This document shows positions 27,460-55,228 of a DNA stretch of 64,000 nt, one piece after another. Below the pieces are notes generated by a model. It did no database searches and was not told the DNA's origin. It saw nothing but the letters and a program-made list of their open reading frames with translations. The number at the start of each line of letters is the position of its first letter. Position 1 is the stretch's first letter. Where the stretch lies: assembly GCF_020735465.1 (NCBI RefSeq), contig NZ_CP085935.1, positions 1,860,001 to 1,924,000 on the forward strand. The letters are read 5' to 3'. The position numbers were made by a program, and so were the translations under genes. The DNA comes from Collinsella stercoris DSM 13279 (GTDB lineage Bacteria > Actinomycetota > Coriobacteriia > Coriobacteriales > Coriobacteriaceae).

Positions 27460-27548
27460 AAAGCTCAGAAGCCTTTCGGCTCTCGAGCTGTAAGCTCTTG
27501 GTTGCGGAGCAGGATTTGAGTTTACGACCTCCGAACCTGTAAGCCCGT
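27460..27548 (-). repeat. Degenerate tRNA-fMet 3' end plus terminator (att scar 1)
   Basis: Read on the minus strand, the segment runs from CGGGCTTACAGGTTCGGAGG through CAAATCCTGCTCCGCAACCA and a terminator hairpin to TTTTTT. It parallels the 3' half and terminator of the intact tRNA-fMet at 34300-34376, with several substitutions. It is best read as the distal attachment-site copy left by an integrated element. Confidence 0.75.
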
Positions 27549-31734: not shown

Positions 31735-32160
31735 AAACTCGGGAGCCATTCGGCTCCCGAGCTGCAAGTTCTTGGTCGCGGGGGTAGGATTTGGACCTAC
31801 GACCTCCGGGTTATGAGCCCGTTTACAATGCCGTTCATCAGCGACAGCTCTTCGCATCCCCTTGTTTCCGCAGGTATATTTGACATGATTCCACTCAATT
31901 CTTTCCTCGCAAGTTCTTCGCGGAGATGATTCGAGGCTGATTCCACGCGGATTCTTCGCGAGGAATCAGCCTCAGGCTCTACTGCGACAAAGGTGCGACA
32001 CTACTGCAAAATGGGCGCAAAATAGGTGCGAACTCTATCGCAGAGAGCAGTACTGCCCCGGATCGTTGACGACAGAGCCGTGCCACTCGAGCGGATCGGA
32101 AGGACCCGAAATCCCCTTGAGAACGTTCCCGGCCGTGCGGCGCGTGCGCTCAACCTCAAT
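31735..32160 (-). repeat. tRNA-fMet 3' copy with terminator (att scar 2) and island repeat R2
   Basis: On the minus strand, GGGCTCATAACCCGGAGG leads through GGTCCAAATCCTACCCC and CGCGACCA to a terminator stem (GCTCGGGAGCC..). This is nearly identical to the intact tRNA-fMet 3' half and its terminator. The adjoining 31785-32160 is the second copy (R2) of the island repeat and retains the regulator tail with an in-frame stop after YCSLR. R2 ends exactly at the 41-bp palindrome. Confidence 0.8.
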
Positions 32161-34299: not shown

Positions 34300-34376
34300 T
34301 GGTCGCGGGGGCAGGATTTGAACCTACGACCTCCGGGTTATGAGCCCGGCGAGCTACCAGACTGCTCCACCCCGCA
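34300..34376 (-). tRNA. Initiator tRNA-fMet (anticodon CAT)
   Basis: The minus strand gives a 77-nt tRNA with encoded CCA. The loop CTCATAA sits on an anticodon stem with three consecutive G-C pairs (GGG/CCC), the hallmark of initiator tRNA. Position 1 (T) cannot form a Watson-Crick pair with position 72 (G), another initiator trait. Degraded copies of its 3' half recur at about 27.5, 30.6 and 31.8 kb, and an inverted one at 34.5 kb, so it is a hotspot for integration. Confidence 0.93.
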
Positions 34377-34480: not shown

Positions 34481-34532
34481 CGCCGGGCTCATAACCCGGA
34501 GGTCGTAGGTTCAAATCCTGCCCCCGCGACCA
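34481..34532 (+). repeat. Inverted tRNA-fMet 3' fragment
   Basis: Fifty-two bases identical to the last 52 nt of tRNA-fMet lie on the plus strand, about 105 bp from the intact gene and inverted to it. The 5' third of the tRNA is missing. A terminator (AGCTCGGAGG/CCTCCGAGCT then TTTTTT, 34538-34568) follows. The fragment contains the att core of the large element. Confidence 0.9.
34495..34514. other. attL core of the integrated element
   Basis: CCCGGAGGTCGTAGGTTCAA is repeated exactly and in direct orientation at 55209-55228. It comprises the anticodon-stem/variable/T-arm part of tRNA-fMet, a common core for tyrosine recombinases. The integrase gene lies 90 bp inside. Confidence 0.85.
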
Positions 34533-34604
34533 AAAGCCCAGCTCGGAGGCCTTTTCCTCCGAGCTTTTTTCTTTAGAAAACACCAAAATGGTCTTTGAAA
34601 TGGT

Positions 34605-35864
34605 CTAACTCGCCGGACGCCCCGACGGCGCCTGCGCGGGCTCGGGGCGCACCATCCCCGCGAGCACGGACAGGTCGATGTCCGCCGTGTAATACTGTCT
34701 GTTGACCTCGACCGAGTGGCCGAAGTACGCCGAGCGCACCTCGGCCGGCACCCCGCGGTCGCGCCACTCGCTGTTGAGCGTGGCCCTCCATACATGGGAC
34801 GCCACGTTGCGGAGCAGCGGGATCCCGAGGTCGTCCGCCAGCTCGTCGTACAGGGCGCGCACCGCCTTCTGCGCGTTCGAGCTGTCCCACATCGCGCCGG
34901 GGGCAGCGGGGGCGCCGAACACGTAGGGGTCGCCGTCGGCGGGGAGCCTGCGGACGCGCTCCCTGATGCGCTCGGCGACGCGCTCGTCGTCCACGAAGCA
35001 CATGCGCCCCCGGCGCGTCTTCGAGGCCTCGTCGGTGATCTCGAGCAGGAGCATCCCGTTTGCCTCCGCGACGCACGAGCGCGTCAGCCTCCTGATCTCG
35101 ACGATGCGGAGTCCGCATGTCGCCTGGGTGAGGGTCGCGTCGATGACCAGGAGGCGCTTCGCCGTCCGCTCTTCGGCGGTGTAGCGCCCGCGGGCGCCCC
35201 TGGGCATCGTCGGGTCGATCGAAAGCAGATGGTCGACGACCCTGAGCCGCTGGTCGCGGGTGAGCGCCTGGCCGCCCTTGGGCTTGCTGCCCTTTCGCTG
35301 GTCCCCCGTGTAGTCGGGATTGAGCCCGATGGCCTCGTTGACGGAGATGACATGGTCGGACTTCAGCTCGGCGACGACGTACTTTCTGACGACCTTCTGA
35401 ACCTGCTTCGCCGTCGCGGTGCCGTGCCCGCGCTCTATGCTGAGGAGGGCCTCCTCGAGGGCGTCGGAGGTGGCGGCGTCGGCGATCGGGTAGCGCCGCG
35501 CCGCCTCGGCGTACAGCCGCAGGAGCTCGACGTACTTCTTCCTGGTCCGTGGCCTGAGCTTCGAGTCGGGCTTCGCCTCGATGGCGGGGATTGTCTCCTT
35601 CAGGACGTAGTCCCGCATGCCGTCGCTGCTTCGCCACAGGCTCGTGCGCGGCCGGCCGTGCGTTGCCAGGAACTCCTCGGTCTTCGCATGGGCCCGCCGC
35701 CTGAGCTCCGCCTGCGAGCAGTTGCCTTGAACCGTGAGTTTGGCGGGCCTCTCGCCGTTGAGCGGCCGGACCCGCCATTGAAGGACGTAGCCGCCCTGCG
35801 GCCTTTGCCGGCACGAGCACGAGTCGATCGTGCTCTGCCCCGGCTCGAGCGCCATGCTTCTCAT
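34605..35864 (-). CDS. int: Tyrosine-type site-specific recombinase (integrase)
   Basis: This 419-residue integrase has an N-terminal arm-binding/SAM-like core (about 50-190) and a C-terminal catalytic domain. The catalytic set is visible: Arg in ATCGLRIVEIRRL, His-x-x-Arg in SHVWRATLNSEW, and the nucleophile in YFGHSVEVNRQYYT, where the second Tyr of the pair is the more usual choice. It reads towards attL, 90 bp away, and its stop codon lies within a subterminal repeat shared with the right end. The ATG at 35864 has GGAGGGG upstream. It catalyses integration at, and with help excision from, the tRNA-fMet-derived core. Confidence 0.94.
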   Translation of the reverse strand: MRSMALEPGQSTIDSCSCRQRPQGGYVLQWRVRPLNGERPAKLTVQGNCSQAELRRRAHAKTEEFLATHGRPRTSLWRSSDGMRDYVLKETIPAIEAKPDSKLRPRTRKKYVELLRLYAEAARRYPIADAATSDALEEALLSIERGHGTATAKQVQKVVRKYVVAELKSDHVISVNEAIGLNPDYTGDQRKGSKPKGGQALTRDQRLRVVDHLLSIDPTMPRGARGRYTAEERTAKRLLVIDATLTQATCGLRIVEIRRLTRSCVAEANGMLLLEITDEASKTRRGRMCFVDDERVAERIRERVRRLPADGDPYVFGAPAAPGAMWDSSNAQKAVRALYDELADDLGIPLLRNVASHVWRATLNSEWRDRGVPAEVRSAYFGHSVEVNRQYYTADIDLSVLAGMVRPEPAQAPSGRPAS

Positions 35865-35876
35865 CGGGAACCCCTC

Positions 35877-36176
35877 CTAGCGACGCGGATGCGACGGGGC
35901 TCCCGTGCGGCGGCCGGACCGGGCGCCGCGTGATGTGGCCGCCAGACCGGTCGCGCAGTTGACGGTGCGGGAGTCGATCCACGAGATGACGTCCTCGCGG
36001 CGGTACCCCACGGGGGAGCGCTTCGCGCCGAGGCGCACGTAGTCGGGCCCCTTGCCCGCCGCGCGCCAGTTCGCGAGCGTGCTCGCGGAGATCCCCAGCA
36101 TCGCGGCCGCCTCCGCCGAGCTGAGCAGGCGGCAAGGGTCGTCCTGATTCGAGATGGCGTTATCGTGCGTTTTCAT
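35877..36176 (-). CDS. Excisionase-like helix-turn-helix protein
   Basis: This 99-residue protein starts MKTHDNAISNQDDPCRLLSS. Its HTH_17/MerR-like motif AEAAAMLGISASTLANWRAA is followed by the winged part VGYRREDVISWID, as in the recombination directionality factors of actinobacterial elements. The basic Arg/Ser-rich tail adds about 25 residues. It lies 12 nt upstream of the integrase on the same strand, which suggests co-expression. An excisionase role is inferred from fold and position. Confidence 0.85.
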   Translation of the reverse strand: MKTHDNAISNQDDPCRLLSSAEAAAMLGISASTLANWRAAGKGPDYVRLGAKRSPVGYRREDVISWIDSRTVNCATGLAATSRGARSGRRTGAPSHPRR

Positions 36177-36746
36177 TCCTGGCCTCCCCGGCAGCGCGTT
36201 CGTGCGCCGGGCAGCGGTTCCATGCGGGCGCCATCCGGGCGCCCCCGCCCCCGGCCGGGGAGGTTGTCGAGAAGCCTTGCTGCCCCCACCGGGCGTCGCT
36301 TCCGACGTGGCTCCGACCTCTTTTCTAGAACCCCGGCCGAGCCCGCGATTCTGTCTCACGCGCGAACAGGGCTGGCGCCGATACAATGCGTCAAGGGAGG
36401 CCGTAACCTCGGGGTACAGTTGCGCCGGCCCCTGAGCGGGGCTGCGGCTGACCGGTGTGCTTGGAAGGGCCCCGCCGGTCCACGGCAAAACGGAATACCC
36501 TCAGCGGGCTTCAAAGTCAAACCGCGGGAGGCTTAGGGGGCCTGTCGTTTTTTCGTTTCGGAAGGCTTCCGGCGGGGCAGGATGAGGCGCATCGGCCCCG
36601 TTCGGCCGCCCGTCCACGGCGGGCCTACCGGAGGGCGATTTTTCGCCATCGCCCGACAGGCGCTCATAAAACATTCACAACTTCGAATATCAGCTGCTAG
36701 AAGTCGGTGCGCGCGACGGGCCCGAGGCGGATGGGAGGCGACGGAG
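36177..36746. other. Non-coding stretch upstream of xis
   Basis: No gene is supported. GC-rich, with a dyad GGCGCCATCC..GGGCGCC at about 36225-36243. It probably contains the int/xis promoter, but no confident -35/-10 pair was found. Confidence 0.4.
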
Positions 36747-36963: not shown

Positions 36964-38734
36964 GCGATAGCCCTTTAAGGTGTATCGCTCATCGGCTCTT
37001 TCGTCTCAGACATCGCGTTTATCATTTGCGACCTTGTCATAATCTTGTGGGACAAATCGATTCCAACAGCGGCGCATAACGCATCGGTAAGTTCTGTTCG
37101 ATAATCGAAAAGCCAGGCGTCGCCGCTAAGATGGTGCCCAACCATGCGGGCAAGATCCTCCGCGATTGCCCGGGCACCAGTCTTTGAGCCAGTCATCGAA
37201 GCGACGTCCTTCTGCATGAGCCTCATGATCAGGAACGCCACATAGCACACAAGAAAATGAGCTCGTATGTAATCCTCACGTGAGACGTAGGAAGGTCGTG
37301 TGCGCGCATCATCGTTGAGCACGCGGAACGAATCCTTGATGTGCGCAAGGTCGAAATATATCTCAACCGTGTCGCGATCATCGTAATAGGTGTTATTCGT
37401 TATGATGCAGCCATAACCGTCAAAAGCCTCATCCATAGCGATTCTGGTCTCGTCGAGAACCCATTTGTGGAACGAGGCCTCATCAGCTCCATAACAAGCA
37501 ACGGGGGCTCCGTCGGCGAAATAACAGGCCTCTTCCTGCCCGGCAGAGATCAGGTGACCATGTTCCATCGCGGAACGGGACATCTCTAAGGCTTTTGCCC
37601 GTTCGTACCGACCCGCCTCGAAACGATCCCTTGACCAGAAGGCGACCTCCTTAACCTTTTCGTACGTATACCTGCTCTTAACCCGGTGCAGGCGAACCGC
37701 CGTATCGGAGATGCGGCTCTTTATTCTGAAGTCTCCAGAGGCATCCGATACGTAATCATCGTCAGAGAGTACCCACTTTTTCTCGTTCTTCCTTGCATGC
37801 CGCATAGACATGGGCAGCACGAAGCGATACAGGCTTCTCGCACAGTCGGCGGCGCAATTCAGGGCATCACGCTCCCTATCGGCCACAATCACGATTTCAA
37901 AAGGCTGCTTTCCCTTGAGATCTGTTTCATCCATAAAGGACAGCATCTTGAGGACCTGCATGCGGTTCCCTGGGAACAGCTCGTAGTCCAAAGGAATGCC
38001 GTCGGCGTCCAACAACAGGCCCATCTGGACAAACGGGTCCGCGCGACGCTGCGCGGGCACGTCCCTCGTTTGAAAACCGTTCCCGACCTCAAAGTAGTAG
38101 TCAGTGATCTTATAGAACAGCTGACCACGATTGCGGGGACCGCGCGCCCGATCGAGGGAGGCGTTAATGTGCCTGATGAGATCGCGAGAGCACGCGGCGA
38201 GGTGCGCAAGTGATCGGTAAATGTCGTCAAGCGAAAACCCGCAGTCTCGAGGGAAAAGCCCGCGCCTCTCCCAGGCCTCGCGTTTCGAGGAGGGATGGGC
38301 GATGCGATCCCATACAAGAAACTCCAAGATGCCACACAAGTCAAGTGAGGTGTCGTGCGGGGCATGGTCACTTTCGAAGAAATCCCGCAACCCCAAAACG
38401 CGGCAATAATATGCGGACGGCACCGCCGCTCCCATTTCGACACACGGGTTTTCATCGTTCATGTCGATCCTTTGCGCATCCTCGAGATTCGCCCCAATGG
38501 GAGCGATTCCTGCGCGCATCCGCTCGTTCTCGGCCTTTACTTCGGCCTCGAAATGCGCAATCGGGTCGTCGTATTGTTTCTCAAGCACATCAAGATATCC
38601 GAGCGAGCGGATATATCTGGACCGCGGCTTGCCGTCCTCATCGCGATAGCTTTGCACGAGCGACAGATAAACCCTGCCGTTCTTCATCCTCTGCTTCCTG
38701 ATATGCATGATGCCCCCATATCCAAAGCTATCGC
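36964..38734 (-). mobile_element. IS1634-family-like insertion sequence
   Basis: One long transposase frame occupies the element. GCGATAGC at 36964-36971 and its inverse at 38727-38734 are the best inverted-end candidates I can see. No target duplication was found, so the limits are approximate. It inserted within the mobile element between the xis region and the polymerase module. Confidence 0.55.
36975..38708 (-). CDS. IS1634-family (IS4 superfamily) transposase
   Basis: This 577-residue protein has the layout of IS1634 transposases: N-terminal SLVQSYRDEDGKPRSRYIRSLG, a central GQLFYKITDYYFEVGNG block, VIVADRERDALN with the second Asp, FDGYGCIITNN and a C-terminal HFLVCYVAFLIMR. In most relatives as I recall them the first catalytic Asp sits in a YDVTT-like motif; here it reads YKITD, so the Asp position is shifted or lost. 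The frame is otherwise intact. Confidence 0.82.
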   Translation of the reverse strand: MHIRKQRMKNGRVYLSLVQSYRDEDGKPRSRYIRSLGYLDVLEKQYDDPIAHFEAEVKAENERMRAGIAPIGANLEDAQRIDMNDENPCVEMGAAVPSAYYCRVLGLRDFFESDHAPHDTSLDLCGILEFLVWDRIAHPSSKREAWERRGLFPRDCGFSLDDIYRSLAHLAACSRDLIRHINASLDRARGPRNRGQLFYKITDYYFEVGNGFQTRDVPAQRRADPFVQMGLLLDADGIPLDYELFPGNRMQVLKMLSFMDETDLKGKQPFEIVIVADRERDALNCAADCARSLYRFVLPMSMRHARKNEKKWVLSDDDYVSDASGDFRIKSRISDTAVRLHRVKSRYTYEKVKEVAFWSRDRFEAGRYERAKALEMSRSAMEHGHLISAGQEEACYFADGAPVACYGADEASFHKWVLDETRIAMDEAFDGYGCIITNNTYYDDRDTVEIYFDLAHIKDSFRVLNDDARTRPSYVSREDYIRAHFLVCYVAFLIMRLMQKDVASMTGSKTGARAIAEDLARMVGHHLSGDAWLFDYRTELTDALCAAVGIDLSHKIMTRSQMINAMSETKEPMSDTP

Positions 38735-39072: not shown

Positions 39073-39093
39073 TTGATTCTGGACGTGATTTTT

Positions 39094-39315
39094 GTGGCAA
39101 ACGACAAGCAAACTAGGCTTAATACTGACAAAACACCGAAACTCGCGCTACGTGAAGACGAAGCTGCTGTTGCACTCGGAATCAAAGTAAAAACGCTTCG
39201 AAACTGGCGCTGCCAGACCCCTCAGAAAGGGCCGCGCTTCGCACGCCTCGGTCGCACCGTCGTATACCCCATAGCTGAACTCGAGCGCTATCTCAACGCG
39301 CATCTAAGCGAGTAG
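39094..39315 (+). CDS. Small helix-turn-helix DNA-binding protein
   Basis: This protein of 73 residues (GTG at 39094; a TTG at 39073 would give 80) contains LALREDEAAVALGIKVKTLR followed by NWRCQ..GPRFARLGRTVVYPIAELERYL, a MerR/HTH_17-type winged helix typical of excisionases and plasmid-like control proteins. It heads a short operon with a 49-aa ORF and the polymerase. It may regulate the replication module; the target is unknown. Confidence 0.8.
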   Translation: MANDKQTRLNTDKTPKLALREDEAAVALGIKVKTLRNWRCQTPQKGPRFARLGRTVVYPIAELERYLNAHLSE

Positions 39316-39326
39316 GTGGTTGACCG

Positions 39327-39476
39327 ATGAAGCCACCTACAACAGATCGAGTTCATGCGAACGACGAATCTCTCGAAGCGGCGTCCGTGAAACACGCACA
39401 GCGCTGTTTCGCCAAACAAAACCCGGCACCCACCGACGAACAGAAGCGGCGCCTCGGCGCGCTGCTCTCCGACTAG
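39327..39476 (+). CDS. Small hypothetical protein, 49 aa
   Basis: ATG 39327 to TAG 39476, product MKPPTTDRVHANDESLEAAS.. to ..QKRRLGALLSD. It fills the space between the HTH gene (11 nt before) and the polymerase gene (3 nt after), which suggests a real, coupled gene. No recognised domain. Confidence 0.55.
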   Translation: MKPPTTDRVHANDESLEAASVKHAQRCFAKQNPAPTDEQKRRLGALLSD

Positions 39477-39479
39477 GCG

Positions 39480-42400
39480 GTGGGCGTCGTGAAGAAGCAG
39501 CCTGAACGCACCTACAAGGTCATTCTCAGCGATGGAACCGAGACCACCGTCACGGAGCAGTCCACAACGCGCGACCAGCAACAGAGTTATCCCGCGATGC
39601 CCCTACAGCTAACGGAGCAGCAGCTCAAGACTCTGGAACAGCAAGGCTGGAATTATTCGGGATACAAACCCGGATACGGTTTCGCTGGGTACGGGGAGCT
39701 GGTCAAAAGCCGTTACGCCCCGCAGTTCGGCGTCCTGTATCGCGAGGTAAAAGCGCTTGACACAGCAAAGCTATCTGTTGCGCAAAACACCCCCCAGACG
39801 CCCTCTCCGAGGTGCACGACGGTGCAAAACGAGGCTTTTGCACCACAGGTTTCAGGGCCCACTTCATTGTCTACCTGCGAAAACAAACCGGGGGCACTTC
39901 GCGAGCTGGGGTGCCCAACCCGCGAGGCGCCCCTGTTTGCCCCCGCCCGCCCCGCCGCACCGTGCGCGGGCGGCGCGCCGAGCGCGCCCTGCGCGCGGGA
40001 TTCCGGGGCCCCGTCGGGGCAGGCCGCCGGGCGGGCTGTGGGGGTCTCCGCGCCCTTGCCGGTGCTCGCGCGAGGCGACGCGACCACGGCCATCGAGCGC
40101 ATCCACAACGGCTTCGGTATTCCGGCCCTGGACGCCATGCGCGGGCGCGAGTTCACCGGGCCGCACGTCGAAGTGGGGTTTGACACGGAGTACGTGGAGG
40201 TTGACGGCGTGCGGTACGTCTTGACGTACCAGTTCACCGTGCTGGATGGCGACGCGGTGCGCCAGTGGATCATGTTCTCGATGACCGGGGAGCGCCTTTC
40301 GCGCGATGACGCGCTCGCGGTCGTGATTCGCGGGATGTCTCCCGCCTACGAGTATGCGGACTATCAGTGCTGGTTCGTGCACATGCCCGTGGACGGCAAG
40401 CCCGGGGAGTGCGAGCTGGTGAGCGTGCACGCGCCTCGCATCACCGGTAGGCATGGGAGCGGTGAGCGCATGGCGTCCGCCAGGGCTCGCGTGGAAACGT
40501 TCCTCGCCATGTGCGAAGCGCTGCCCTACGACGAGGAGCTCACCGCCCTGATGGAGCCTGCCCGAATGACGAAAGCGGAGGCCCGCGACCTTCCCGTGAT
40601 CGGCAGGTCTTACGACAAGCACGGCGCCGTGACCGAGGAGTTCACGTATCGTGGTCTGCTCCGGGCCGAATCCTCCTATGACGACGACCGGCTGGCCGAC
40701 CATGAGGAGCCGTCGGCGTACCGCTACCGCGATGTGTTCGCTGGGACGCGCGCCTCGGGCTGCTCCGTCGGTTACACGAACGACTATACCGATGTGGGGC
40801 GTGACAGCGCCGGCGAACGGGACCCCGACTGGCGACTGGTCGTCACGCTGGTTGAGCACTTCGGGATGGCCGATGCGACCACGTTCGAGCGCGGCCTGTT
40901 CGAGAAGGACCTCATGACGCGCCTATCGAAGGTGCAGGGCGGCCTCGTGACGCTCCGCCCCGTGTCTCTCATGGTGGGAACAGCGACGCGATCCTGGGCG
41001 TTCCAGCAGGTGCTGCTGAATGTGCGCGACACGATGTGCTATGCGCCGGCCGCGAAGAAGACGCTCGCCGCCCTCGGCGAGGCCATCGGGCTTCCGAAGA
41101 TTGATATTCCCCATGAGTGGAAGGAGAACATGGATCAGTTGTGGACCGTCGACCCCGTGCTGTTCTGCGAGTACGCCGTCAACGATGCCGTGATTGCCCT
41201 GTTCTATGCGAAGGCCCTTTTCGGCGAGAACAACGAGCTGCCCGTCACGGCAAATGGCGCCGCCGCCCGCGTGGCGCGTCAATCCATCGGCGAATATCTG
41301 CGCTGCGCGAACCAGGCTGAATTTGACCTCAAATATCGCGGCCTTGTCAAAATCAAGCGCGGTATGGCCTACACGGCGACGGGGATGGTGCCCTTCTCGA
41401 AGCTCACGCCGCACTCGACCGACGCCGCCACGGTCATGAACATGGCGTCGGCCGGGTACCACGGAGGGCTGAACGGTTGCATGCACGTCGGGAGCTTCCC
41501 TTACATCACCTACGACGTCGACGCGCGCAACGCCTACCCTACGGGGATGATGCTCGTCGTCGACATCGACTGGACATCCCCCATCCTCAGGGAATGGCGC
41601 GACGCCGAGCTCTCTTGGGATGACTTCGATGCCGCGCTAGGGCCCTGCACGCCGCTGCTCGCTGAGGTTGAGTTCGAGTTTCCCCGCAGCGTGTATCAGC
41701 CGTCCATCGGTATCGCCTGCGATGGGTCGCTCGTTTTCCCCCGCACGTCAAAGGGCGCGAACGTGTGCGTCGCCTCTGGCCCCGAGCTTTGGGCAGCGAA
41801 GAAGCTGGGGGCGAGGGTCATCATTCGTCACGCCGTACTCCTGCGGACGCTTCGCAACGACGACGGGGTGTTCTCTCGCAGCCTATCCGAGGTGTGTCGC
41901 ATGTTCGTCGAGTCCCGTGCTCAGGCTGTGGAAATGTACGGCGCCAAGTCTCTCGCCGAACTGCTCGCAAAGCTCGGCATCAACTGCAATTATGGCAAAG
42001 TGTCGCAGGGAGTGAGCCCCAAGGCCACATATAACGCCATGACCGGGTGCATGGAAGACCTGGAGGGATCGTCCATTACGAGCCCCTATCATGCGTGCAT
42101 GATCACCGCTCTCGTGCGCGTCCTGCTCGTGATGGCGATCAATCAGCTTCACGACCTCGGTTACGAGGTCTTTTCCGTCACGACGGACGGCTTCATCACC
42201 GATGCCCCGGCCGACGTTATCGAGGAGCTCGATCTTTACGGGCTCGCGAAATATTTCCGCGAGGCTCGCCTGCAGCTCACGGGGTATAAGGATCCGTCCG
42301 TCTGGTCGCTGAAGCATGTCCAAGACGACCTTTGCAATTTCACTACGCGCGGCAACGTCTCGCTGCGCGTGGGCGGCGCCGATTCCGTGCTGGGCGGGCA

Positions 42401-43142
42401 CCCGGGCGTCTGCGCCCACAACTCGCTCGTGACCGGTGAGGAGAAGGACTCGTACGAGGACCGGCACGCGCTCATGCTTGCCGTGGCGTCGCGCACGGGG
42501 CGCGTGGAGACCCACAAGGCCCGCCCCACGTCGTTCCGCGCCCTCACGTCGCGCTCCGAGCGCGCGGACTTCGGCTTTAGGGACCAGGGCCGCTATCTTT
42601 CGATGGACTTCGATATGAAGCGCCGTCCCCTGCGCGAGACGCTTGCTGAGGGCACCCTGACTCTCGACGGCGTTGATTTCAAGGTGGCGTCTGTTGATAC
42701 GGCCCCATGGGACAGCGTCGAGGAATTCATGAAGGGGAAGCGCCTCGGCGAGCGCATCGCCCGTGAGGGCGGTTGTTTGCGCACGCGCGCCGACTGGGAC
42801 GTCTGGTTTTTGCGCTATGGGCTCGAGGGCGCGTACGTCAGCAAGGATCCCGTATGGACGCTCGTCCGCGCCGCCGTCTGCGCGTACCGGCAGGGCGCCC
42901 TGGCGATCGGTCCGCTTGCGGCCCTCGATACCGGCAAGCGCGGCAGCGTCGATGCCTGCTGCCGATGGATCAACCGCTTCATCCCCCGTTCCTCCAAGCA
43001 CCACGGGAAGTTCAACGCGAACACGTGGAAGGATTGCCGCAAAAGCAACCGCAACATCGTCGCGCCCGAGGACATGCTGGCCGAGATCGTCGAGTGCATG
43101 CGCAGCGATGACCCCGATTCGTGGCTGGTGTTGTGGCCATGA
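39480..43142 (+). CDS. Family-B DNA polymerase (DNA_pol_B_2-like) of a mobile element
   Basis: This 1,220-residue polymerase has a low-complexity Pro/Ala/Gly stretch at about 100-190. The 3'-5' exonuclease shows Exo I FDTEY (Asp235, Glu237) and Exo III EYAVNDAVIALFY (about 563-575). The polymerase domain shows motif A YDVDARNAYPTGMM (Asp679/681), motif B LGINCNYGKVSQG (Tyr838) and motif C SVTTDGFITD (Asp903). The usual motif C, DTDS, is here TTDG: the metal-binding second Asp stays and the first is Thr. The order resembles protein-primed or primer-independent (piPolB) polymerases of plasmids, viruses and pipolins. No terminal-protein gene was recognised. It starts at the GTG at 39480, 3 nt after the 49-aa ORF. 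Confidence 0.88.
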   Translation: MGVVKKQPERTYKVILSDGTETTVTEQSTTRDQQQSYPAMPLQLTEQQLKTLEQQGWNYSGYKPGYGFAGYGELVKSRYAPQFGVLYREVKALDTAKLSVAQNTPQTPSPRCTTVQNEAFAPQVSGPTSLSTCENKPGALRELGCPTREAPLFAPARPAAPCAGGAPSAPCARDSGAPSGQAAGRAVGVSAPLPVLARGDATTAIERIHNGFGIPALDAMRGREFTGPHVEVGFDTEYVEVDGVRYVLTYQFTVLDGDAVRQWIMFSMTGERLSRDDALAVVIRGMSPAYEYADYQCWFVHMPVDGKPGECELVSVHAPRITGRHGSGERMASARARVETFLAMCEALPYDEELTALMEPARMTKAEARDLPVIGRSYDKHGAVTEEFTYRGLLRAESSYDDDRLADHEEPSAYRYRDVFAGTRASGCSVGYTNDYTDVGRDSAGERDPDWRLVVTLVEHFGMADATTFERGLFEKDLMTRLSKVQGGLVTLRPVSLMVGTATRSWAFQQVLLNVRDTMCYAPAAKKTLAALGEAIGLPKIDIPHEWKENMDQLWTVDPVLFCEYAVNDAVIALFYAKALFGENNELPVTANGAAARVARQSIGEYLRCANQAEFDLKYRGLVKIKRGMAYTATGMVPFSKLTPHSTDAATVMNMASAGYHGGLNGCMHVGSFPYITYDVDARNAYPTGMMLVVDIDWTSPILREWRDAELSWDDFDAALGPCTPLLAEVEFEFPRSVYQPSIGIACDGSLVFPRTSKGANVCVASGPELWAAKKLGARVIIRHAVLLRTLRNDDGVFSRSLSEVCRMFVESRAQAVEMYGAKSLAELLAKLGINCNYGKVSQGVSPKATYNAMTGCMEDLEGSSITSPYHACMITALVRVLLVMAINQLHDLGYEVFSVTTDGFITDAPADVIEELDLYGLAKYFREARLQLTGYKDPSVWSLKHVQDDLCNFTTRGNVSLRVGGADSVLGGHPGVCAHNSLVTGEEKDSYEDRHALMLAVASRTGRVETHKARPTSFRALTSRSERADFGFRDQGRYLSMDFDMKRRPLRETLAEGTLTLDGVDFKVASVDTAPWDSVEEFMKGKRLGERIAREGGCLRTRADWDVWFLRYGLEGAYVSKDPVWTLVRAAVCAYRQGALAIGPLAALDTGKRGSVDACCRWINRFIPRSSKHHGKFNANTWKDCRKSNRNIVAPEDMLAEIVECMRSDDPDSWLVLWP

Positions 43143-43228: not shown

Positions 43229-43531
43229 ATGGAAACGACAAACGACTCGCCCAAGAAGCCCGGCGACATCGGGTACGGGCCCGACGGGGGCCTCATCCTC
43301 TACGGCTACATGCCCGAGGGCGGCATCAGCACCCCCAAGACGTCGCCGACCCTGTCCGAACACCTCGACGAGTTGTTCGAGCTCTACGGGTTCTACGATC
43401 CCAGCGATCTCTGCGATACCGACTATGTCTACGGTTCCGGCGATCTCTGCGATCCCGATGATTTCTACGATCCCGACGACGAGGACATGCCCGACGGCCC
43501 CGACGAGGATCGCCTCGGGCGCTGGATCTAG
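43229..43531 (+). CDS. Strongly acidic hypothetical protein
   Basis: This 100-residue protein starts METTNDSPKKPGDIGYGPDG. The last 50 residues are a run of Asp/Glu/Tyr-rich repeats (YDPSDLCD, GDLCDPDDFYD, DPDDEDMPDGPDED). Such charge is seen in DNA-mimic antirestriction proteins, but no homology is claimed. It follows the polymerase by 86 nt. AAAGGAAAAGGAAATG gives a good ribosome site. Confidence 0.75.
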   Translation: METTNDSPKKPGDIGYGPDGGLILYGYMPEGGISTPKTSPTLSEHLDELFELYGFYDPSDLCDTDYVYGSGDLCDPDDFYDPDDEDMPDGPDEDRLGRWI

Positions 43532-43603: not shown

Positions 43604-43891
43604 ATGGCGAAGAAGACCGACGACGAGCTCATCGAGCTCTACGCGAGGAGGCTCTCGGAGGCGCGCAGGCGCAAGGCGGAGGCCGTGCGCCGCGCGGCGG
43701 AGCGCCGGGCGCGCGACATCGCGGCCGCGGCCGACCGCATGACGGTCGGCGCGTTCGAGCGCCTCTGCCGTGAGGCGCACGCGAGCCCCGACGCCCCGCT
43801 GGCGGAGGTGCTGCTCGAGGCCCGCGAGGGCCGGGGCGCGGACGGGCCCGAGGCTCCCGCCGAGTGCCCTCCGGGACCCGGCCCGACGTGA
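43604..43891 (+). CDS. Small basic helical protein, possible mobilization accessory
   Basis: This 95-residue protein starts MAKKTDDELIELYARRLSEA. Residues 15-50 are an Arg/Ala-rich helix and the C-terminus is Pro/Gly-rich. AAAGGAGG precedes the ATG. Size, charge and position just before the relaxase resemble MobC-type accessory proteins, but no defining motif is seen. Confidence 0.65.
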   Translation: MAKKTDDELIELYARRLSEARRRKAEAVRRAAERRARDIAAAADRMTVGAFERLCREAHASPDAPLAEVLLEAREGRGADGPEAPAECPPGPGPT

Positions 43892-43898
43892 GGCCGGC

Positions 43899-44072
43899 CG
43901 GCCCGGGGAGCCCCGCTCCCCGGGCCCTCCCCGTCCGCGAGGCGGACGGGCGCGGCGCTCGCCCCGTGCGGGCGGCAGCGTTGCCACGGCAACGCTGCGT
44001 ACTGCGTTACGTGGCGTGGGCACGCCACGGGAGACCCCCGCGCCGCCGCCCTGTGGCGGCGCGCGCGGGGGA
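43899..44072. other. Cluster of five strong hairpins, candidate oriT
   Basis: Perfect or near-perfect stems follow each other: 43900-43926 (GGCCCGGGGAGC/GCTCCCCGGGCC), 43930-43950 (CCCGTCCGC/GCGGACGGG), 43975-43998 (GCAGCGTTGCC/GGCAACGCTGC), 44010-44029 (CGTGGCGTG/CACGCCACG) and about 44035-44071. They lie directly upstream of the relaxase genes, where MobV-type elements place their oriT. The nick site cannot be assigned by eye. Confidence 0.5.
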
Positions 44073-44102
44073 GTTGACGGACGAGTTATCAAGGAGGACG
44101 CC

Positions 44103-44309
44103 ATGAAGACATCTCTTCACAACCAGCGCGGCGCTCTGGGCGCCGCGAGCGGCCACCGGCCGCAACACAACGACGCCCTGATGTACCTCCGGGGCGTCGA
44201 GCGGTTCCATGCCGACGCGCCGCACCGCGAGCGCCTAGACCGTGCGGCGCCCGAGGACGGGCGCCCGGCGGGCGGCGCGGTGCGGGCGGAGAAGGCGGAC
44301 GAGCTCTAG
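44103..44309 (+). pseudogene. Truncated duplicate of the relaxase N-terminus
   Basis: Sixty-eight residues starting MKTSLHNQRGALGAASGHRP match the start of the following relaxase (MKASLHAQRGPRGGKGGYQP), including QHND, then diverge and stop at TAG. Its leader, GGAGGACGCCATGAAG, is also duplicated. It could be a remnant or a short regulator or competitor of the relaxase. Confidence 0.7.
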
Positions 44310-44319
44310 GGAGGACGCC

Positions 44320-46155
44320 ATGAAGGCATCTCTTCACGCCCAGCGCGGCCCCCGGGGCGGCAAGGGCGGCTACCAGCCGCAGCACAACGACGGCTCGATG
44401 TACCTCTGGGACGGTGCGCGGTTCGGTGCCGGCAGGCCGCTCAACTTGCACTGGGACGAGACCATGCCCGAGGGCGAGTGGCTGACGGGCGGCGAGCAGG
44501 CCGGGCGGACCGGCGCCGCCGTCGACTCGTTCTACGAGTCGACCCTGCGCGCCGAGTACGCGAGGAAGCTCGCCAGCGCCGGCTGGCGCAAGAACCCGTC
44601 CCGCGTCAAGGAGTTCGGCGACTACTGCAACGATGCGCGCCACCGCCTGTTCGAGACGATAATCCAGGTCGGCGACGCGGAGGAGTCGCCCGCCGAGGGC
44701 TGTCTCGAGGCCGCCCTCGGCGGCGCGCTCGGGCGGATGCGCGAGCTCGGCGCCCGGATCGTCGCCGTCGACGTCCACCTGGACGAGGCGACGCCCCACG
44801 CGCACGTTCTCTGGGCGCTCATCGACTCCGAGGGCGAGTTCAACGTCGACCGCACCCTCCGCGAGCACGGCGTCGAGCCCGCCGAGGCGGCCTCGGGCGG
44901 CAAGCGCGACGTGAGGCGCGCGACGCGTCTCGCGGCGTTCACCGCGAGCGTGCGCGAGGCGATGGAGGACGCGGCCGACGAGTGGCTCGCCGAGCACGGG
45001 ATGGAGGCGCTCGACCGCGAGCGCGACCCCCGGCGCAAGGGCGAGACCCTCCCCGAGTACAAGGGGCGCAAGCGCCGCGAGCGCGCGCAGCGCGAGAAGA
45101 TCGAGCGGATGCGCGAGGACGCGGAGGCCGTGCTCGACGGCGCGATCGAGAAGGCGGACGAGATCGTCCTCAAGGCGTGGGAGGAGGCCTGCGAGATCAA
45201 GGCGGGGGCGCTCTCGGACCGGAGGCTGGCGCGGGGGGAGACAGAGTCCGCCCGGGCCGCCGCCCGCGAGCTCTCCCGGCGGGAGGCGCAGGCGAGCGTC
45301 CTGCTCAACGGTTACGAGCCGCCCGCCTTCGCGCACCTCGTGAGGCCCGCGCAGATGCCGCCCGACATGCACGCCCTATGGCTCTACCTCTACGGGCCGA
45401 GGCTCGAGGGCTACGAGCCCGACGACTCCGAGGTCCCCGACCGCTACCGCACCTGCGTCCTGCCGGGCTCCGACGCCCCGGTCGTCGACCCCGACGCCGT
45501 CGAGGACGACTTCGACGAGCTGCTTGACGGGCTCTACGGCGACCGCGACGCCTGCGCGAAGGCCTGCGGGGAGGAGGGCGTCTGGCTCTTCGACGCCATC
45601 CCGGAGGACTACGAGCTGAACGAGTGGTTCCTCGACGAGGAGGGCCGCGTGGACCCGGACGTCTGGGGCGACGCCCTCGACAGTTACGCCTCGGACGCGA
45701 TGGACGCGATCGGTGTCCCGCTCCGCCTCGGGCTCGACCCCGAGCTCCCGCACCCCGGCCTCGCCGAGCGGGAGGCCGCCGTCGAGTCCCGCGAGCGGGA
45801 GGCCGCCGAGCGCGAGCGCGCGGCCGCCGAGGAGGAGGCGCGTGCCCGCGACGCCCGCGAGCGCGCCGAAGCCGAGCTCCGGGAGGCGGAGCGCCTCCGG
45901 GCGCTGGCGGGCAGCGCCTGCGATGTCCTCCGGCGTGGCCTCATCTTCCTCGCCGACCGCTTCGGGCGCGACCGGCTCACCGGCGGGCAGAACGAGGTCG
46001 GGCGCGTGCTGTCCGGGCTCGTGAGGAGGATGGGCACGCGGGAGTTCGAGGGCGCCTCCCACGAGTTCGAGGAGCTGGTGTTCCCGCCGCGCTCGCCCTC
46101 GGCCCCCGCCCCCTCGGTCCCGTGCGCCGAGCCGCAGGACTCGCCGGAGCTCTAG
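44320..46155 (+). CDS. MobV/Pre-like mobilization relaxase
   Basis: This 611-residue HUH-type nuclease should nick oriT and lead the strand into the recipient. The N-terminus has the QHND segment with His22, which matches the position of the catalytic His of MobV proteins. The metal-binding motif VHLDEATPHAHV (153-164) is the classic HxDExxPHxH. Residues 235-300 and 460-540 are charged Arg/Glu/Ala-rich helices, probably coiled coil. The ATG at 44320 has GGGAGGACG upstream. It follows the truncated copy by 10 nt and the hairpin cluster by about 250 bp. No type IV secretion gene accompanies it. Confidence 0.88.
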   Translation: MKASLHAQRGPRGGKGGYQPQHNDGSMYLWDGARFGAGRPLNLHWDETMPEGEWLTGGEQAGRTGAAVDSFYESTLRAEYARKLASAGWRKNPSRVKEFGDYCNDARHRLFETIIQVGDAEESPAEGCLEAALGGALGRMRELGARIVAVDVHLDEATPHAHVLWALIDSEGEFNVDRTLREHGVEPAEAASGGKRDVRRATRLAAFTASVREAMEDAADEWLAEHGMEALDRERDPRRKGETLPEYKGRKRRERAQREKIERMREDAEAVLDGAIEKADEIVLKAWEEACEIKAGALSDRRLARGETESARAAARELSRREAQASVLLNGYEPPAFAHLVRPAQMPPDMHALWLYLYGPRLEGYEPDDSEVPDRYRTCVLPGSDAPVVDPDAVEDDFDELLDGLYGDRDACAKACGEEGVWLFDAIPEDYELNEWFLDEEGRVDPDVWGDALDSYASDAMDAIGVPLRLGLDPELPHPGLAEREAAVESREREAAERERAAAEEEARARDARERAEAELREAERLRALAGSACDVLRRGLIFLADRFGRDRLTGGQNEVGRVLSGLVRRMGTREFEGASHEFEELVFPPRSPSAPAPSVPCAEPQDSPEL

Positions 46156-49007: not shown

Positions 49008-52000
49008 TTACAGTTGGTTCCTGCGACGGAAGTGCGCGCCTGCGCCGACAGCGGCCATGCCGGCGAGCGCGAGGCCGGCGATCATGGCGCCCGCCGCGTC
49101 GCCGGTCTGCGGCAGGTCGCCGCGCACGGTCTTCTCTGCGGGCTTGTAGCCGGCCTGGGTCATGCCGCCCTGCTCCGCGCCCTGCTTGGGCTCATCGGGC
49201 GTGGCCTCCGGCTTCTCCTCGGGCAGCAGCGCCACGAGCTCGTCGTAGGCTGCCTGCGCCTCTGCGAGTGCCGCCTTCTTCTCAGCGAGCTCGGCTGCGG
49301 TGGCGTCCTTGTCCTCGAGCGCGGACTCGTAGGCGGCCTTCGCTTGCGCGAGGCGCTCCGTGGCCATCTCGGCGAGCACGGCCTTCTCCTCGTAGGCGAG
49401 GTGCGCCGCATCGAGCGCGGCCTTCACGTCCGCGTCGCCCGCGGTGCCGCCGTTCAGGACGGCGTCCTTCACGGCATCGGCGTCCGGCAGCGCCGCGGCC
49501 CATGCGTCGGCCTTGGCCTGGGCCTTAGGCAGCGCGGCCTCGGCGGCCTGCTTGATGCCCGTCTGCTCCTCGATGTCGGCCATGATGGCGTTCACGAGGG
49601 CGTCGACCTCGTCCTTGGCCGCTGCGGCCTCGTCTGCCGTCTGCTTGGCCGCGTCGCGGTCGCGCTCAAGCTGGGCGACCTGCTGCTTCTTGGTCTCGAG
49701 TGCGGCCTCGGCATTCTTTAGCACCTGGATCTGCTCCTCGGATGCGCCGGCGGCTTCTGCTGCGGCCTTCTTCTGGTCATAGTCGGCCCGGGCAGCCTCG
49801 ATCTGGCCGTTGAGCTCGGCGATCTGGCTGTTCAGGCTCTTCACGAGCGCGCTGGCAGTCTCGTAGGCATTATCAGCCTCGGTCGCGTTGGCCTCCGCGT
49901 TGTCGAGCGCCTCGGCGGCGTCGGTGAGGCTCTTGTACTGGGCGCGGGTGTCGGCGAGCTGGCGGGCGGCCTCCTCGGAGGCGGTGCGGAGATTGTCAAG
50001 CTGGCCCTTGGCCGTGTCGAGCTGCTTCTGCAGCTCGGACTTCCGGCCGGTGAGCTCGCTGACCTTCTGGTTCACCGCATCGGTGACGGTGTCGAGGTTG
50101 TCCTGGGCGTTAGACTGCTGCTTCTTGGCATCATTCAGCTCTTGCTGGGCTTTGTCGTAGGCGGCCTGCAAGCCGTCCTCGGTCGGGCGCGCGCCGATGG
50201 CGGCGAGGTCGTTGTTCGCCTGGGTGAGCTGGCCATTGGCGGCGGTGACGCCGTTCTGGGCGGTCGTCACCTCGCCCTCGGCCGCGGTCTTCTGCTGCTC
50301 GAGCTCGGCGAGCTGGGATTTCAGCTGCTCGAGCTGCTCGACGAGAGAGCCATTGTCAGCTGTGGAGCTGATGCCGCTATTCATTGCGAGCTCGATGAGG
50401 TCGCGGAATTGATCCGTGGTAAAACGATGTTTGTCATAGGAGTTAGCGTTGAGGCCCATGCCATAGAATTTATTGGTGGCGATGTTATTCTCCCAATTGT
50501 AGACCTGACTCGACATGCCTTTCGTATAGGCCGCTCCGGTGACCTCGTATCGGTCGCTCATCAAATTGATGTAATGCCCGCACGTAGCAAATGCCTGTTG
50601 CATGGCGGGGTCGCGGCGATGCTCGTAATAGAAGTTGTAGGTATCCGCTGCCGCTGGTACCGTGCCGTAGGTCTCTTGGCAGAACTTCTCCCAGTCGACT
50701 TTCTCGGATGCCCAGAGTGAGACGGGATTGTTGCTCCCATATGCAAGGTTTTCCGCTACGTTCATGCCGTTCGGAAGTTTGTTGCTCGGGGTGTTCGCGA
50801 TGACGGTCTGCGCATGTTCAAGTTTATGAGTCTGATCAATGTGATATTTCGACCAGTTCGCGTTGAGGATCGACACGGCGGTCATGAGATAGGTCACCTT
50901 GAGCGGTTCGAGCCCGGCCTCCTCACGCAGCTCATTCGCGGCATCGATGGAGTCGAGCGCTTTGAGAACGTTGGTTAGGGAACTCGCATCGTTCTTATCA
51001 CCCATGTGGGTATACCACTGGATGAAGTCGGCATCTTTGAAGCTCACACCGCAATGTGGGTTGTTTGCGGGATTCTCACCGGACATCACATAGCCGAAAT
51101 TAGCGATAAAGCCGTCGTGGTCATGTGAATCCCATCCTTGAAGTAGGTCAAGTTCATTTGTGCCTAGGTAATCGTCCTCGAGGTATCCATTAGCATCTGC
51201 CCAAGTGAGGAAGTCGCCGAAGTCATCGATCATCTGAGTAGTGCCATGGTCGATCTGGTCTTGGATCTTCTTGATCTCGGCGTTCTTCGCCTTGATCTGG
51301 CCGTCGAGGTCGGCGACCTTGGCCTCGGCCTGCTCGAGCGCAGCTTTAGCCGTGGCGACGCCCTGCTTGGCCGTCTCGACGGCCTCCTTGAGCGGCGCGG
51401 CCTTCTCGTCCCATTCCTTCTGCGCGGCCTCGAGGTCCTCGAGCGCCTTCTCGGCGAGGTCGAGCTTTTCCTGCTTCTCGTTCACGAGCTTGTTGGCGGC
51501 ATCGACCGTGGCCTGCGCGTCGGTCACCTTTTGCTCCTCGGACGCGATCTGGGCGTCGATGCCCTCGATCTGGCCGGGGAGGGTCGCGATCTTGTTCTCG
51601 CAGTCGGCGAGCTCGGCTGCGGCGTTATCGGCAGCGGTCTGCTTCTCTTGGATCGCAGCGGTGGCCTCGGCCTCGGCCTTGGCACCTGCGGTCGCGACGG
51701 CCTGGTCATAGGCTGCCTGGGCGGTGCCCAGCTTCTCGTTGGCGGCGTCGAGCGCGGCCTTGGCCTCGGCGATGGCCCCCTCGTCCTCGCCGTCCTTGAC
51801 GGCGTCGTAGGCGGCCTGGGCGTTCGCCTGCTCGGTGCCGGCGGCGTCGAGCGCGGCCTTCTCGTCGGCGACGAGCTCGCCCTTGATGGCCTCGACGGAT
51901 GAGGCGTAGTTCGCCTTCGCGGTCGCGAGCGCCTCGTCGGCCCGCTGCTTCGCGGCCTGCTTGTTCGCGAGATCGCTCTGTGCGGTCGCGAGCTCGCCCT

Positions 52001-52727
52001 GCTTGGAGGCCAGCTCGGCGGTGAGCTGATCGAGCGCGGATTTCGCCTCGTCGGCGGCCTGCTGCTTGGCCTGCTGGTCCGCGACGGCCTCGTCATAGGC
52101 CTTCTTGGCGTCGTCGTAGGCGGCCTGCTCGTCCGCGGTCGGGTTCTCGCCGAGCGCGTCGAGGGCGGCCTGAGCCTCCTTCAGCGCCTCGTTGGCCTCA
52201 TCGAGCGCGGTCTGCGCTTGCGTCTGGCTCTTCTCGGCCTCGGCCTTGTCGGCCTCGAGGCCCTCGAGCGCGGCGCTGGCGTCGGCGGACTGCTTGTTCA
52301 GGTCCTCGACCTTCTTTTGGGCGGCGACGAGCTCGGCGTTGAGCGCCTCGATCTGGCGCTCGAGCTCGGCGACCTTCGCGGCGTCGGCCTGGCTGGCGGC
52401 GGCAGAGGCGCCGTCGTAGCTGCCCTTCGCGTTCGCGACGACCGTCGCCTGCTGGGCGTCGGCGCCCTCGGCGCGTGCGGCGTCGCTCTTCGCGGCATCG
52501 AGGGCCTTCGCGGCCTTATCGATCGCGGCCTTGAGCTCCTCTGCCGTCATGCGGCCCTCGCCCTTGATGATGCGCTGGGCGGCGCCCGTGAAGCTCGTGT
52601 CGACGGTGACGCGCTCGATCGCGGGCGCGTCTGCCGCCACCGCCTGCGAGACGGGCGCGAGCGCGCTCGGCGCCACCATCGCGACGGTCAGCGCGCCTAC
52701 GAGGGCGCGGCTCCCCAGCTTGTTCAT
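49008..52727 (-). CDS. Sortase-anchored coiled-coil surface protein with CAP domain
   Basis: This 1,239-residue surface protein starts MNKLGSRALVGALTVAMVAP with a signal peptide to about residue 32. Residues 45-515 and 795-1,170 are long Ala/Glu/Lys/Gln-rich coiled coils (with many 'AKAALDAANEKL'-type heptads). The 280-residue middle is a globular domain with GHYINLMSDRYEVTGAAY, a CAP/SCP (PR1) signature. The C-terminus DLPQTGDAAGAMIAGLALAG then RRRNQL is a complete LPxTG sorting signal. GAGAGGGG precedes the ATG at 52727. Coiled-coil arms holding a CAP head suggest an adhesin-like role, inferred. No sortase gene is in the element. Confidence 0.93.
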   Translation of the reverse strand: MNKLGSRALVGALTVAMVAPSALAPVSQAVAADAPAIERVTVDTSFTGAAQRIIKGEGRMTAEELKAAIDKAAKALDAAKSDAARAEGADAQQATVVANAKGSYDGASAAASQADAAKVAELERQIEALNAELVAAQKKVEDLNKQSADASAALEGLEADKAEAEKSQTQAQTALDEANEALKEAQAALDALGENPTADEQAAYDDAKKAYDEAVADQQAKQQAADEAKSALDQLTAELASKQGELATAQSDLANKQAAKQRADEALATAKANYASSVEAIKGELVADEKAALDAAGTEQANAQAAYDAVKDGEDEGAIAEAKAALDAANEKLGTAQAAYDQAVATAGAKAEAEATAAIQEKQTAADNAAAELADCENKIATLPGQIEGIDAQIASEEQKVTDAQATVDAANKLVNEKQEKLDLAEKALEDLEAAQKEWDEKAAPLKEAVETAKQGVATAKAALEQAEAKVADLDGQIKAKNAEIKKIQDQIDHGTTQMIDDFGDFLTWADANGYLEDDYLGTNELDLLQGWDSHDHDGFIANFGYVMSGENPANNPHCGVSFKDADFIQWYTHMGDKNDASSLTNVLKALDSIDAANELREEAGLEPLKVTYLMTAVSILNANWSKYHIDQTHKLEHAQTVIANTPSNKLPNGMNVAENLAYGSNNPVSLWASEKVDWEKFCQETYGTVPAAADTYNFYYEHRRDPAMQQAFATCGHYINLMSDRYEVTGAAYTKGMSSQVYNWENNIATNKFYGMGLNANSYDKHRFTTDQFRDLIELAMNSGISSTADNGSLVEQLEQLKSQLAELEQQKTAAEGEVTTAQNGVTAANGQLTQANNDLAAIGARPTEDGLQAAYDKAQQELNDAKKQQSNAQDNLDTVTDAVNQKVSELTGRKSELQKQLDTAKGQLDNLRTASEEAARQLADTRAQYKSLTDAAEALDNAEANATEADNAYETASALVKSLNSQIAELNGQIEAARADYDQKKAAAEAAGASEEQIQVLKNAEAALETKKQQVAQLERDRDAAKQTADEAAAAKDEVDALVNAIMADIEEQTGIKQAAEAALPKAQAKADAWAAALPDADAVKDAVLNGGTAGDADVKAALDAAHLAYEEKAVLAEMATERLAQAKAAYESALEDKDATAAELAEKKAALAEAQAAYDELVALLPEEKPEATPDEPKQGAEQGGMTQAGYKPAEKTVRGDLPQTGDAAGAMIAGLALAGMAAVGAGAHFRRRNQL

Positions 52728-52807
52728 ATCGACCCCTCTCTGCGCCTTGGGCGCCATGTGCCTCGGTTGGTACTTTCCCATCCGGCTTTCTCTCCCTCGC
52801 TTGTGGT

Positions 52808-54694: not shown

Positions 54695-55208
54695 GATCTT
54701 CTCCCTCCGTCGGATCGCGGGGCTTCCGCCCCCTGTCGGGAGGGTGTCCGTGAGCGCGGCGGGGCGCAGCGCTCAGATGATGAAGGCTGCAGGATTAAGG
54801 CGACGCAAGCTCATTGGTTCCAGGCTAACCGATCAAAAGTGTCTAATTTTAGTTAGACATCTCCCTTCGTCGGATCACGGGACCTCCGCCCGGGGCCAGA
54901 GCGGAGGCGCAGCCCATGGGAACGGGCCAGCATGATGAAAATATGTATACTGTTTTCATCAACGAGAGGGGGCGGATTATCAACGGAAGCAGGAAGGGTT
55001 GGAGAGGGTCAGGGAAACTGACCCTTGCAGAGTTTCGATGGCATTCGGATGGCGACGGGGTCGAAAGAATGGTCTCCAAAATGGTCTAACTCGCCATGAT
55101 TTTCAGTGATCCAGCGTGATACGGCGTGAGACTAGTTTGATGAATCTCAGCAGGTAAACAGCGGTGTTAAGCGTGATACCTCGGGATACTCAATTATGTT
55201 CTGCATTG
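54695..55208. repeat. Right end of the element: duplicated leader and arm repeats
   Basis: No gene is seen. TCTCCCTCCGTCGGATCGCG (about 54711) recurs with few changes at about 54864 as a duplicated operon leader. TGTCTAA..TTAGACA (54838-54857) is a dyad. AATGGTCT occurs twice at about 55070-55087, the second within AATGGTCTAACTCGCC, which is also present near the left end (about 34598-34613). AGCGTGATAC is repeated at about 55113 and 55169. Confidence 0.7.
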
Positions 55209-55228
55209 CCCGGAGGTCGTAGGTTCAA
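55209..55228. other. attR core of the integrated element
   Basis: Exact direct copy of the attL core CCCGGAGGTCGTAGGTTCAA. The bases that follow (CTTGCCCGAAGCTGCC) differ from the tRNA, so the present right flank is not an intact tRNA gene. Confidence 0.85.

Follow-up and report, generated by a model that had tools for sequence, protein, structure and literature searches.

The polymerase gene and its surroundings

The window, a stretch of 64,000 nucleotides from the Collinsella stercoris DSM 13279 chromosome, carries a long gene for a family B DNA polymerase (PolB) together with genes for recombination and mobilisation, and this group of genes lies between two direct repeats of a tRNA-Met sequence (Table 1). 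The polymerase frame is free of internal stops over its 1220 codons in the translation, and the next in-frame GTG, at 39489, is a possible alternative start. The genes are arranged in the order of integrase, excisionase-like HTH protein, IS1634-family transposase, a second HTH protein, a 49-aa peptide, polymerase, two small ORFs, relaxase and cargo.

The integrase scores 23.7 bits with the Phage_integrase profile, below the Pfam cut-off of 27.1, and is 42-45% identical to the integrases adjoining genes for primer-independent PolBs (piPolBs) in Olsenella intestinalis and in an uncultured Atopobiaceae genome (G296). The IS1634-family transposase is probably an insertion inside the element; it separates the integrase/excisionase pair from the HTH-polymerase pair, and no clear terminal inverted repeats of this insertion were found. 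The charged ORF between the polymerase and the relaxase may, from its position, encode a relaxosome accessory protein. Just upstream of the relaxase gene, its start is partly duplicated in tandem (44055-44223 and 44271-44440, 79%). Past the relaxase, the cargo includes a lipoprotein-like ORF, a zinc-ribbon protein and small ORFs besides the cell-surface protein, and no defence system was recognised among it. Matches of the surface protein to SMC, LmuB and JetC were taken as coiled-coil artefacts. In other actinobacterial pipolins, the mobile elements that carry piPolB, the HTH protein itself ends in the motif carried here by the 49-aa peptide; in the window this gene is split. The split HTH gene, the disruption by IS1634 and the duplicated relaxase start suggest that the element may be decaying, but the polymerase frame has stayed intact despite these disruptions.

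Table 1. Features of the polymerase-bearing element, with window coordinates
Feature	Coordinates	Strand	Basis and remarks
Left att core, CCCGGAGGTCGTAGGTTCAA	34495..34514	+	Repeat search; empty site in G021
Tyrosine recombinase (integrase)	34605..35864	-	phrog_1 9e-12; Phage_integrase 4.6e-5
Excisionase-like HTH_17 protein	35880..36177	-	Pfam-A, PHROGs; 60% identical homologue in the G296 pipolin
IS1634-family transposase	36978..38708	-	NF033559 8e-51
HTH_17 (excisionase-like) protein	39073..39315	+	Pfam-A; homologues at 46-60% identity in the O. intestinalis and G296 pipolins
49-aa peptide with C-terminal motif (AP.LT.EQ..RL..LL)	39327..39476	+	Comparison with actinobacterial pipolins
piPolB gene	39480..43142	+	1220 aa, GTG start; exonuclease and polymerase motifs; TTDG at residues 901-904
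Small acidic ORF	43229..43531	+	ORF list; Pfam-A, PHROGs
Small charged ORF	43604..43891	+	ORF list; NCBIfam, PHROGs
MobV/Pre-type relaxase, motif HLDEATPHAH	44320..46155	+	NCBIfam MobV 2e-5 (weak); Mob_Pre E 0.18
Cargo: coiled-coil LPXTG-type cell-surface protein, 1257 aa	49008..52781	-	NCBIfam and homologue comparison
Right att core, direct repeat of left	55209..55228	+	Repeat search; empty site in G021

Motif C of the polymerase

The exonuclease and polymerase motifs of the window polymerase are intact. Exo I is FDTEY (D235/E237), Exo II is of the EHFGMAD type (H...D, against the canonical N...FD) and Exo III is YAVND (Y565/D569); motif A is DVDARNAYP with D681 as the catalytic Asp, and motif B is NCNYG (K831...G839). 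Motif C lies in the context SVTTDGFITD (T901-T902-D903-G904). An earlier note on this DNA had listed these same Exo I, Exo III, motif A and motif B residues, and its reading of motif C, with only the second Asp (Asp903) retained and Gly in place of Ser, is borne out by the translation. In family B polymerases, the motif A Asp and the second Asp of motif C are the ligands of the catalytic metals, and the window polymerase keeps both, as D681 and D903.

The same note had allowed that the true motif C might lie elsewhere. When a profile of 40 relatives was aligned by hhalign with a profile of 10 protein-primed PolBs from phages and viruses (probability 99.2%, covering Exo III and motifs A, B and C), TTDG fell onto the CDTDS of phi29 polymerase; thus, TTDG is the true motif C, and the protein has no motif C at another place. 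In this alignment the A-B and B-C spacings are close to the phi29 lengths, so that no large deletion of TPR1/TPR2 is seen at the sequence level. For residues 201-1220, an AlphaFold2 model (pLDDT 84, pTM 0.79) has phi29 polymerase as its top Foldseek match (E 5e-12), and VIA-align gave a Z of 19.6 over 513 residues (rmsd 3.9) against 11.9 for the next family. Judged from this predicted model, phi29 polymerase is the closest solved fold.

In alignments of 25 and 40 sequences, the motif residues vary little or not at all, which argues that motif C and the other motifs did not arise by chance. Since further relatives from genome contigs had been picked partly by the TTDG pattern, conservation was judged first on relatives gathered without use of the motif; these have TTDG as motif C, except for VTDG in Fusobacterium. 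In the aligned relatives, (T/V)TDG and about 20 further residues are invariant. As reviewed in PMC7544198, the first motif C Asp is absent from piPolBs, which still polymerise efficiently. Thus, the motif that made the polymerase look divergent in the earlier note turns out to be the norm of its family, a mark and not an anomaly.

A polymerase with Thr at the position of the first motif C Asp might instead be catalytically dead and kept for a different function, for instance in DNA binding or as an exonuclease only, and archaeal B2 PolBs with a similar loss were once thought to be inactivated (PMC7544198). However, the substitution is found throughout the family and does not prevent efficient polymerisation by piPolBs, the motif A Asp, the motif B Lys, the second motif C Asp and the Exo Asp/Glu are all kept, and the frame is intact, so that we regard a dead enzyme as extremely improbable.

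The polymerase of Bifidobacterium phage BD811P3 (L097:814-2265) is of the phi29 type, has NTDG as motif C and has a degenerate exonuclease part. Loss of the first motif C Asp is thus not exclusive to piPolBs and is no proof of membership by itself.

Placement among piPolBs

General profile collections say little about this polymerase. A Pfam-A search with it gave no match, DNA_pol_B_2 included; NCBIfam and PDB sequence searches gave no useful family, PHROGs gave a weak phage polymerase match and nothing else, and no close relative was found in the phage and viral-contig collections searched. Of the two profile comparisons suggested in the earlier note, the one with DNA_pol_B_2 thus gave no match and the one with piPolB gave a strong one: an HMM of piPolBs that left out the window and its class (Coriobacteriia) scored the window polymerase at 751 bits and any protein-primed polymerase at 61 bits at most. 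In a quick maximum-likelihood tree, 25 piPolB-like sequences and 10 protein-primed ones are split by a branch with an SH-aLRT of 100, and the window polymerase adjoins that of the uncultured Atopobiaceae genome; the finer order is unsure because of long branches.

By tblastn against plasmid records, the relatives are mostly on small plasmids with relaxases. The polymerase of Staphylococcus epidermidis plasmid pSE-12228-03 matches at E 8e-44, and other matches are in S. warneri, Fusobacterium, Helicobacter and, on a larger plasmid, Pseudosulfitobacter. Identity to these plasmid homologues is about 25%, and the link to the characterised E. coli piPolB, which stands outside the alignment, HMM and tree, runs through them. 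In S. epidermidis and L. fermentum, pipolins are known to occur as plasmids that also encode relaxases and resolvases (PMC9710591, ExplorePipolin). The gene content of pSE-12228-03 agrees with that description (relaxase, resolvase), and the polymerase of L. fermentum plasmid NC_004566 belongs to the same family as the window polymerase. Related polymerases were seen at 54 further loci in Actinomycetota, Bacillota, Pseudomonadota and others, while 369 genomes from the class of a Solimonas relative added nothing new. Within the class of the window organism, 4 of 398 sampled genomes carry one, the window genome counted, and among 45 genomes of the genus it is the only one.

Members of the piPolB family are reported to prime de novo (PMC7544198, PMC7385651). 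From sequence, the window polymerase is very probably a member of this known family, and its primer independence, which the earlier note had suspected, is well supported through kinship, by sequence, profile, tree and element anatomy together.

A rival reading takes it as a protein-primed polymerase of the phi29/PRD1 type, for which the hydroxyl of a terminal protein, encoded by a gene that went unrecognised, would prime synthesis at the ends of a linear genome. The phi29 and PRD1 polymerases share the overall fold and motif order with the window polymerase, phi29 polymerase is the closest solved fold to the predicted model, and BD811P3, which groups with the phi29 type, also has NTDG. However, phi29 and PRD1 have DTDS as motif C, linear genomes and a terminal-protein gene adjoining that of the polymerase. 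The HMM of protein-primed PolBs did not report the window polymerase, and the tree separates the two groups with full support; by tree and HMM, it does not belong to the protein-primed PolBs, nor does it group with a terminal-protein-dependent family as the earlier note had considered.

The element and its insertion site

A tRNA-Met gene at 34300-34376 (-) is accompanied by a 48-bp inverted partial copy of itself at 34485-34532, and 20 bp of this copy are repeated, in the same direction, as the right att core. Beyond the left att core, the tRNA-Met 3' tail continues to 34532; past the right att core the chromosome resumes, with rlmL at 55294. In another genome of the same genus (G021), a single unbroken tRNA-Met relic lies between tRNA-Met and rlmL, and both window flanks are matched. 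This uninterrupted relic is an empty site, and it defines the element as 34495-55228, about 20.7 kb. Paired AATGGTCT repeats just inside the ends (34588-34606 and 55068-55087) look, by sequence, like integrase arm sites. Fragments of tRNA-Met are found near tRNA-Met(CAT) at 34300 (31773-31820, 27509-27533 and 34485-34532), which suggests repeated integrations there.

Attachment repeats in tRNA genes and a tyrosine recombinase belong to the published anatomy of pipolins (PMC7385651). In the window, piPolB lies between direct, tRNA-related att-like repeats and a tyrosine recombinase, below the Pfam cut-off as noted above, is encoded inside; as an integrative pipolin, the element is typical.

The borders also bear on protein priming. 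No terminal inverted repeats were found between the two element ends, the plasmid homologues are circular, and a circular form is implied by integration at direct att repeats of a tRNA, all of which argue against it. A search of the neighbouring genes against Pfam-A, NCBIfam and PHROGs gave no match to a terminal protein, although such proteins are poorly conserved. Taken with the HMMs and the tree, the missing inverted repeats and the signs of a circular form make protein priming very unlikely.

Comparison with other pipolins

The window polymerase shares family, TTDG and the exonuclease and polymerase motifs with the pipolin polymerase of pSE-12228-03 (Redrejo-Rodriguez et al., 2017), and both have relaxase and recombinase genes as neighbours. 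In contrast to that 8-kb Staphylococcus plasmid, the window element is chromosomal and much larger, and its polymerase has a longer N-terminal part (1220 aa in all) and TTRG in place of KTRG. E. coli pipolins likewise have piPolB, direct att repeats in a tRNA and tyrosine recombinases (Flament-Simon et al., 2020). They sit at tRNA-Leu, whereas the window element sits at tRNA-Met, in an inverted relic beside the intact gene, and has a MobV-type relaxase and surface-protein cargo.

The closest counterparts are in O. intestinalis (G177) and in the uncultured Atopobiaceae genome. Both share the tRNA-Met att core with the window, have a related integrase, an HTH protein and piPolBs 34-55% identical to the window polymerase, and also carry Mob_Pre relaxases and surface-protein cargo. 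The O. intestinalis pipolin is about 10.6 kb and, unlike the window element, undisrupted; it lies between an intact tRNA-Met gene and a direct repeat of that gene's 3' end, and encodes an integrase, an HTH protein, piPolB, a SpaA-type surface protein and a Mob_Pre relaxase. Because the same tRNA-Met repeats are used in all three, tRNA-Met is a recurrent target in Coriobacteriales.

Two side observations concern these genomes. In the uncultured Atopobiaceae genome, two different genes for piPolB adjoin each other (G296:C6:128000-162000; L024, L025 and L035) across a 38-bp tRNA-Met att repeat, and the pair is apparently tandem pipolins. Cell-wall-anchored or pilin-like proteins, as cargo or neighbours, occur in all three Coriobacteriales pipolins (window 49008-52781; L024:1833-5519; L026:16094-16888).

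Proposed mode of replication

The kinship of the polymerase, its motif positions and predicted fold, the att repeats, the empty site and the gene content point to one reading: the gene very probably encodes the piPolB of an integrative pipolin (34495-55228), for which priming, excision, replication and mobilisation can be proposed. The integrase and excisionase would shuttle the element between its chromosomal site at a tRNA-Met sequence and a circle. On the excised circle, piPolB would lay the first nucleotides on the template itself and then extend them; Asp681 of motif A and Asp903 of motif C would hold the metals, and the missing motif C Asp would be dispensable. The MobV-type relaxase may permit transfer of the element through a helper conjugation system.

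It is also conceivable, though unlikely, that the enzyme is a real piPolB but serves mainly for something other than replicating the element, for example bypass of host DNA damage, or synthesis primed at a relaxase nick. The biological role of piPolB is called unclear in PMC9710591, which reports putative damage tolerance, and a relaxase able to yield a 3'-OH is encoded next to piPolB in the window. However, piPolB is carried by small plasmids of few genes without an annotated Rep, and with these a role as replicase fits.

A gene coupled to piPolB

At about 20 actinobacterial loci (L036, L039, L040, L043, L050, L067 and L073 among them), an HTH_17 gene with a product of about 100 aa overlaps the start of piPolB by 4 bases, and most of these proteins end in AP.LT.EQR.RLA.ILGG. 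An excisionase gene is counted among the common genes of pipolins (PMC9710591); neither the coupling nor the C-terminal motif was found described in the literature, of which the key papers were covered in part. A second difference lies after motif C, where most actinobacterial and Lachnospiraceae members, the window polymerase included, have TTRG, and Staphylococcus and proteobacterial members have KTRG. The lysine of KTRG is reportedly involved in de novo synthesis, according to the 2017 paper on piPolB. One could speculate that the HTH protein is a dedicated origin-binding or priming partner and that, with TTRG, this clade initiates in a partner-dependent manner, unlike the enzyme that has been studied; we consider this quite doubtful.

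Implications

The window polymerase and its element add to the known kind of piPolB and pipolin, and TTDG is no new invention; an active-site motif that is apparently broken is explained as a hallmark of piPolBs. For Coriobacteriales, a clearly bounded pipolin with a proven empty site and with tRNA-Met sequences as targets is added, and a conserved partner gene of the HTH type, coupled to piPolB, is pointed out. Self-priming polymerases serve whole-genome amplification, and GC-rich actinobacterial piPolBs are natural candidates for tests.
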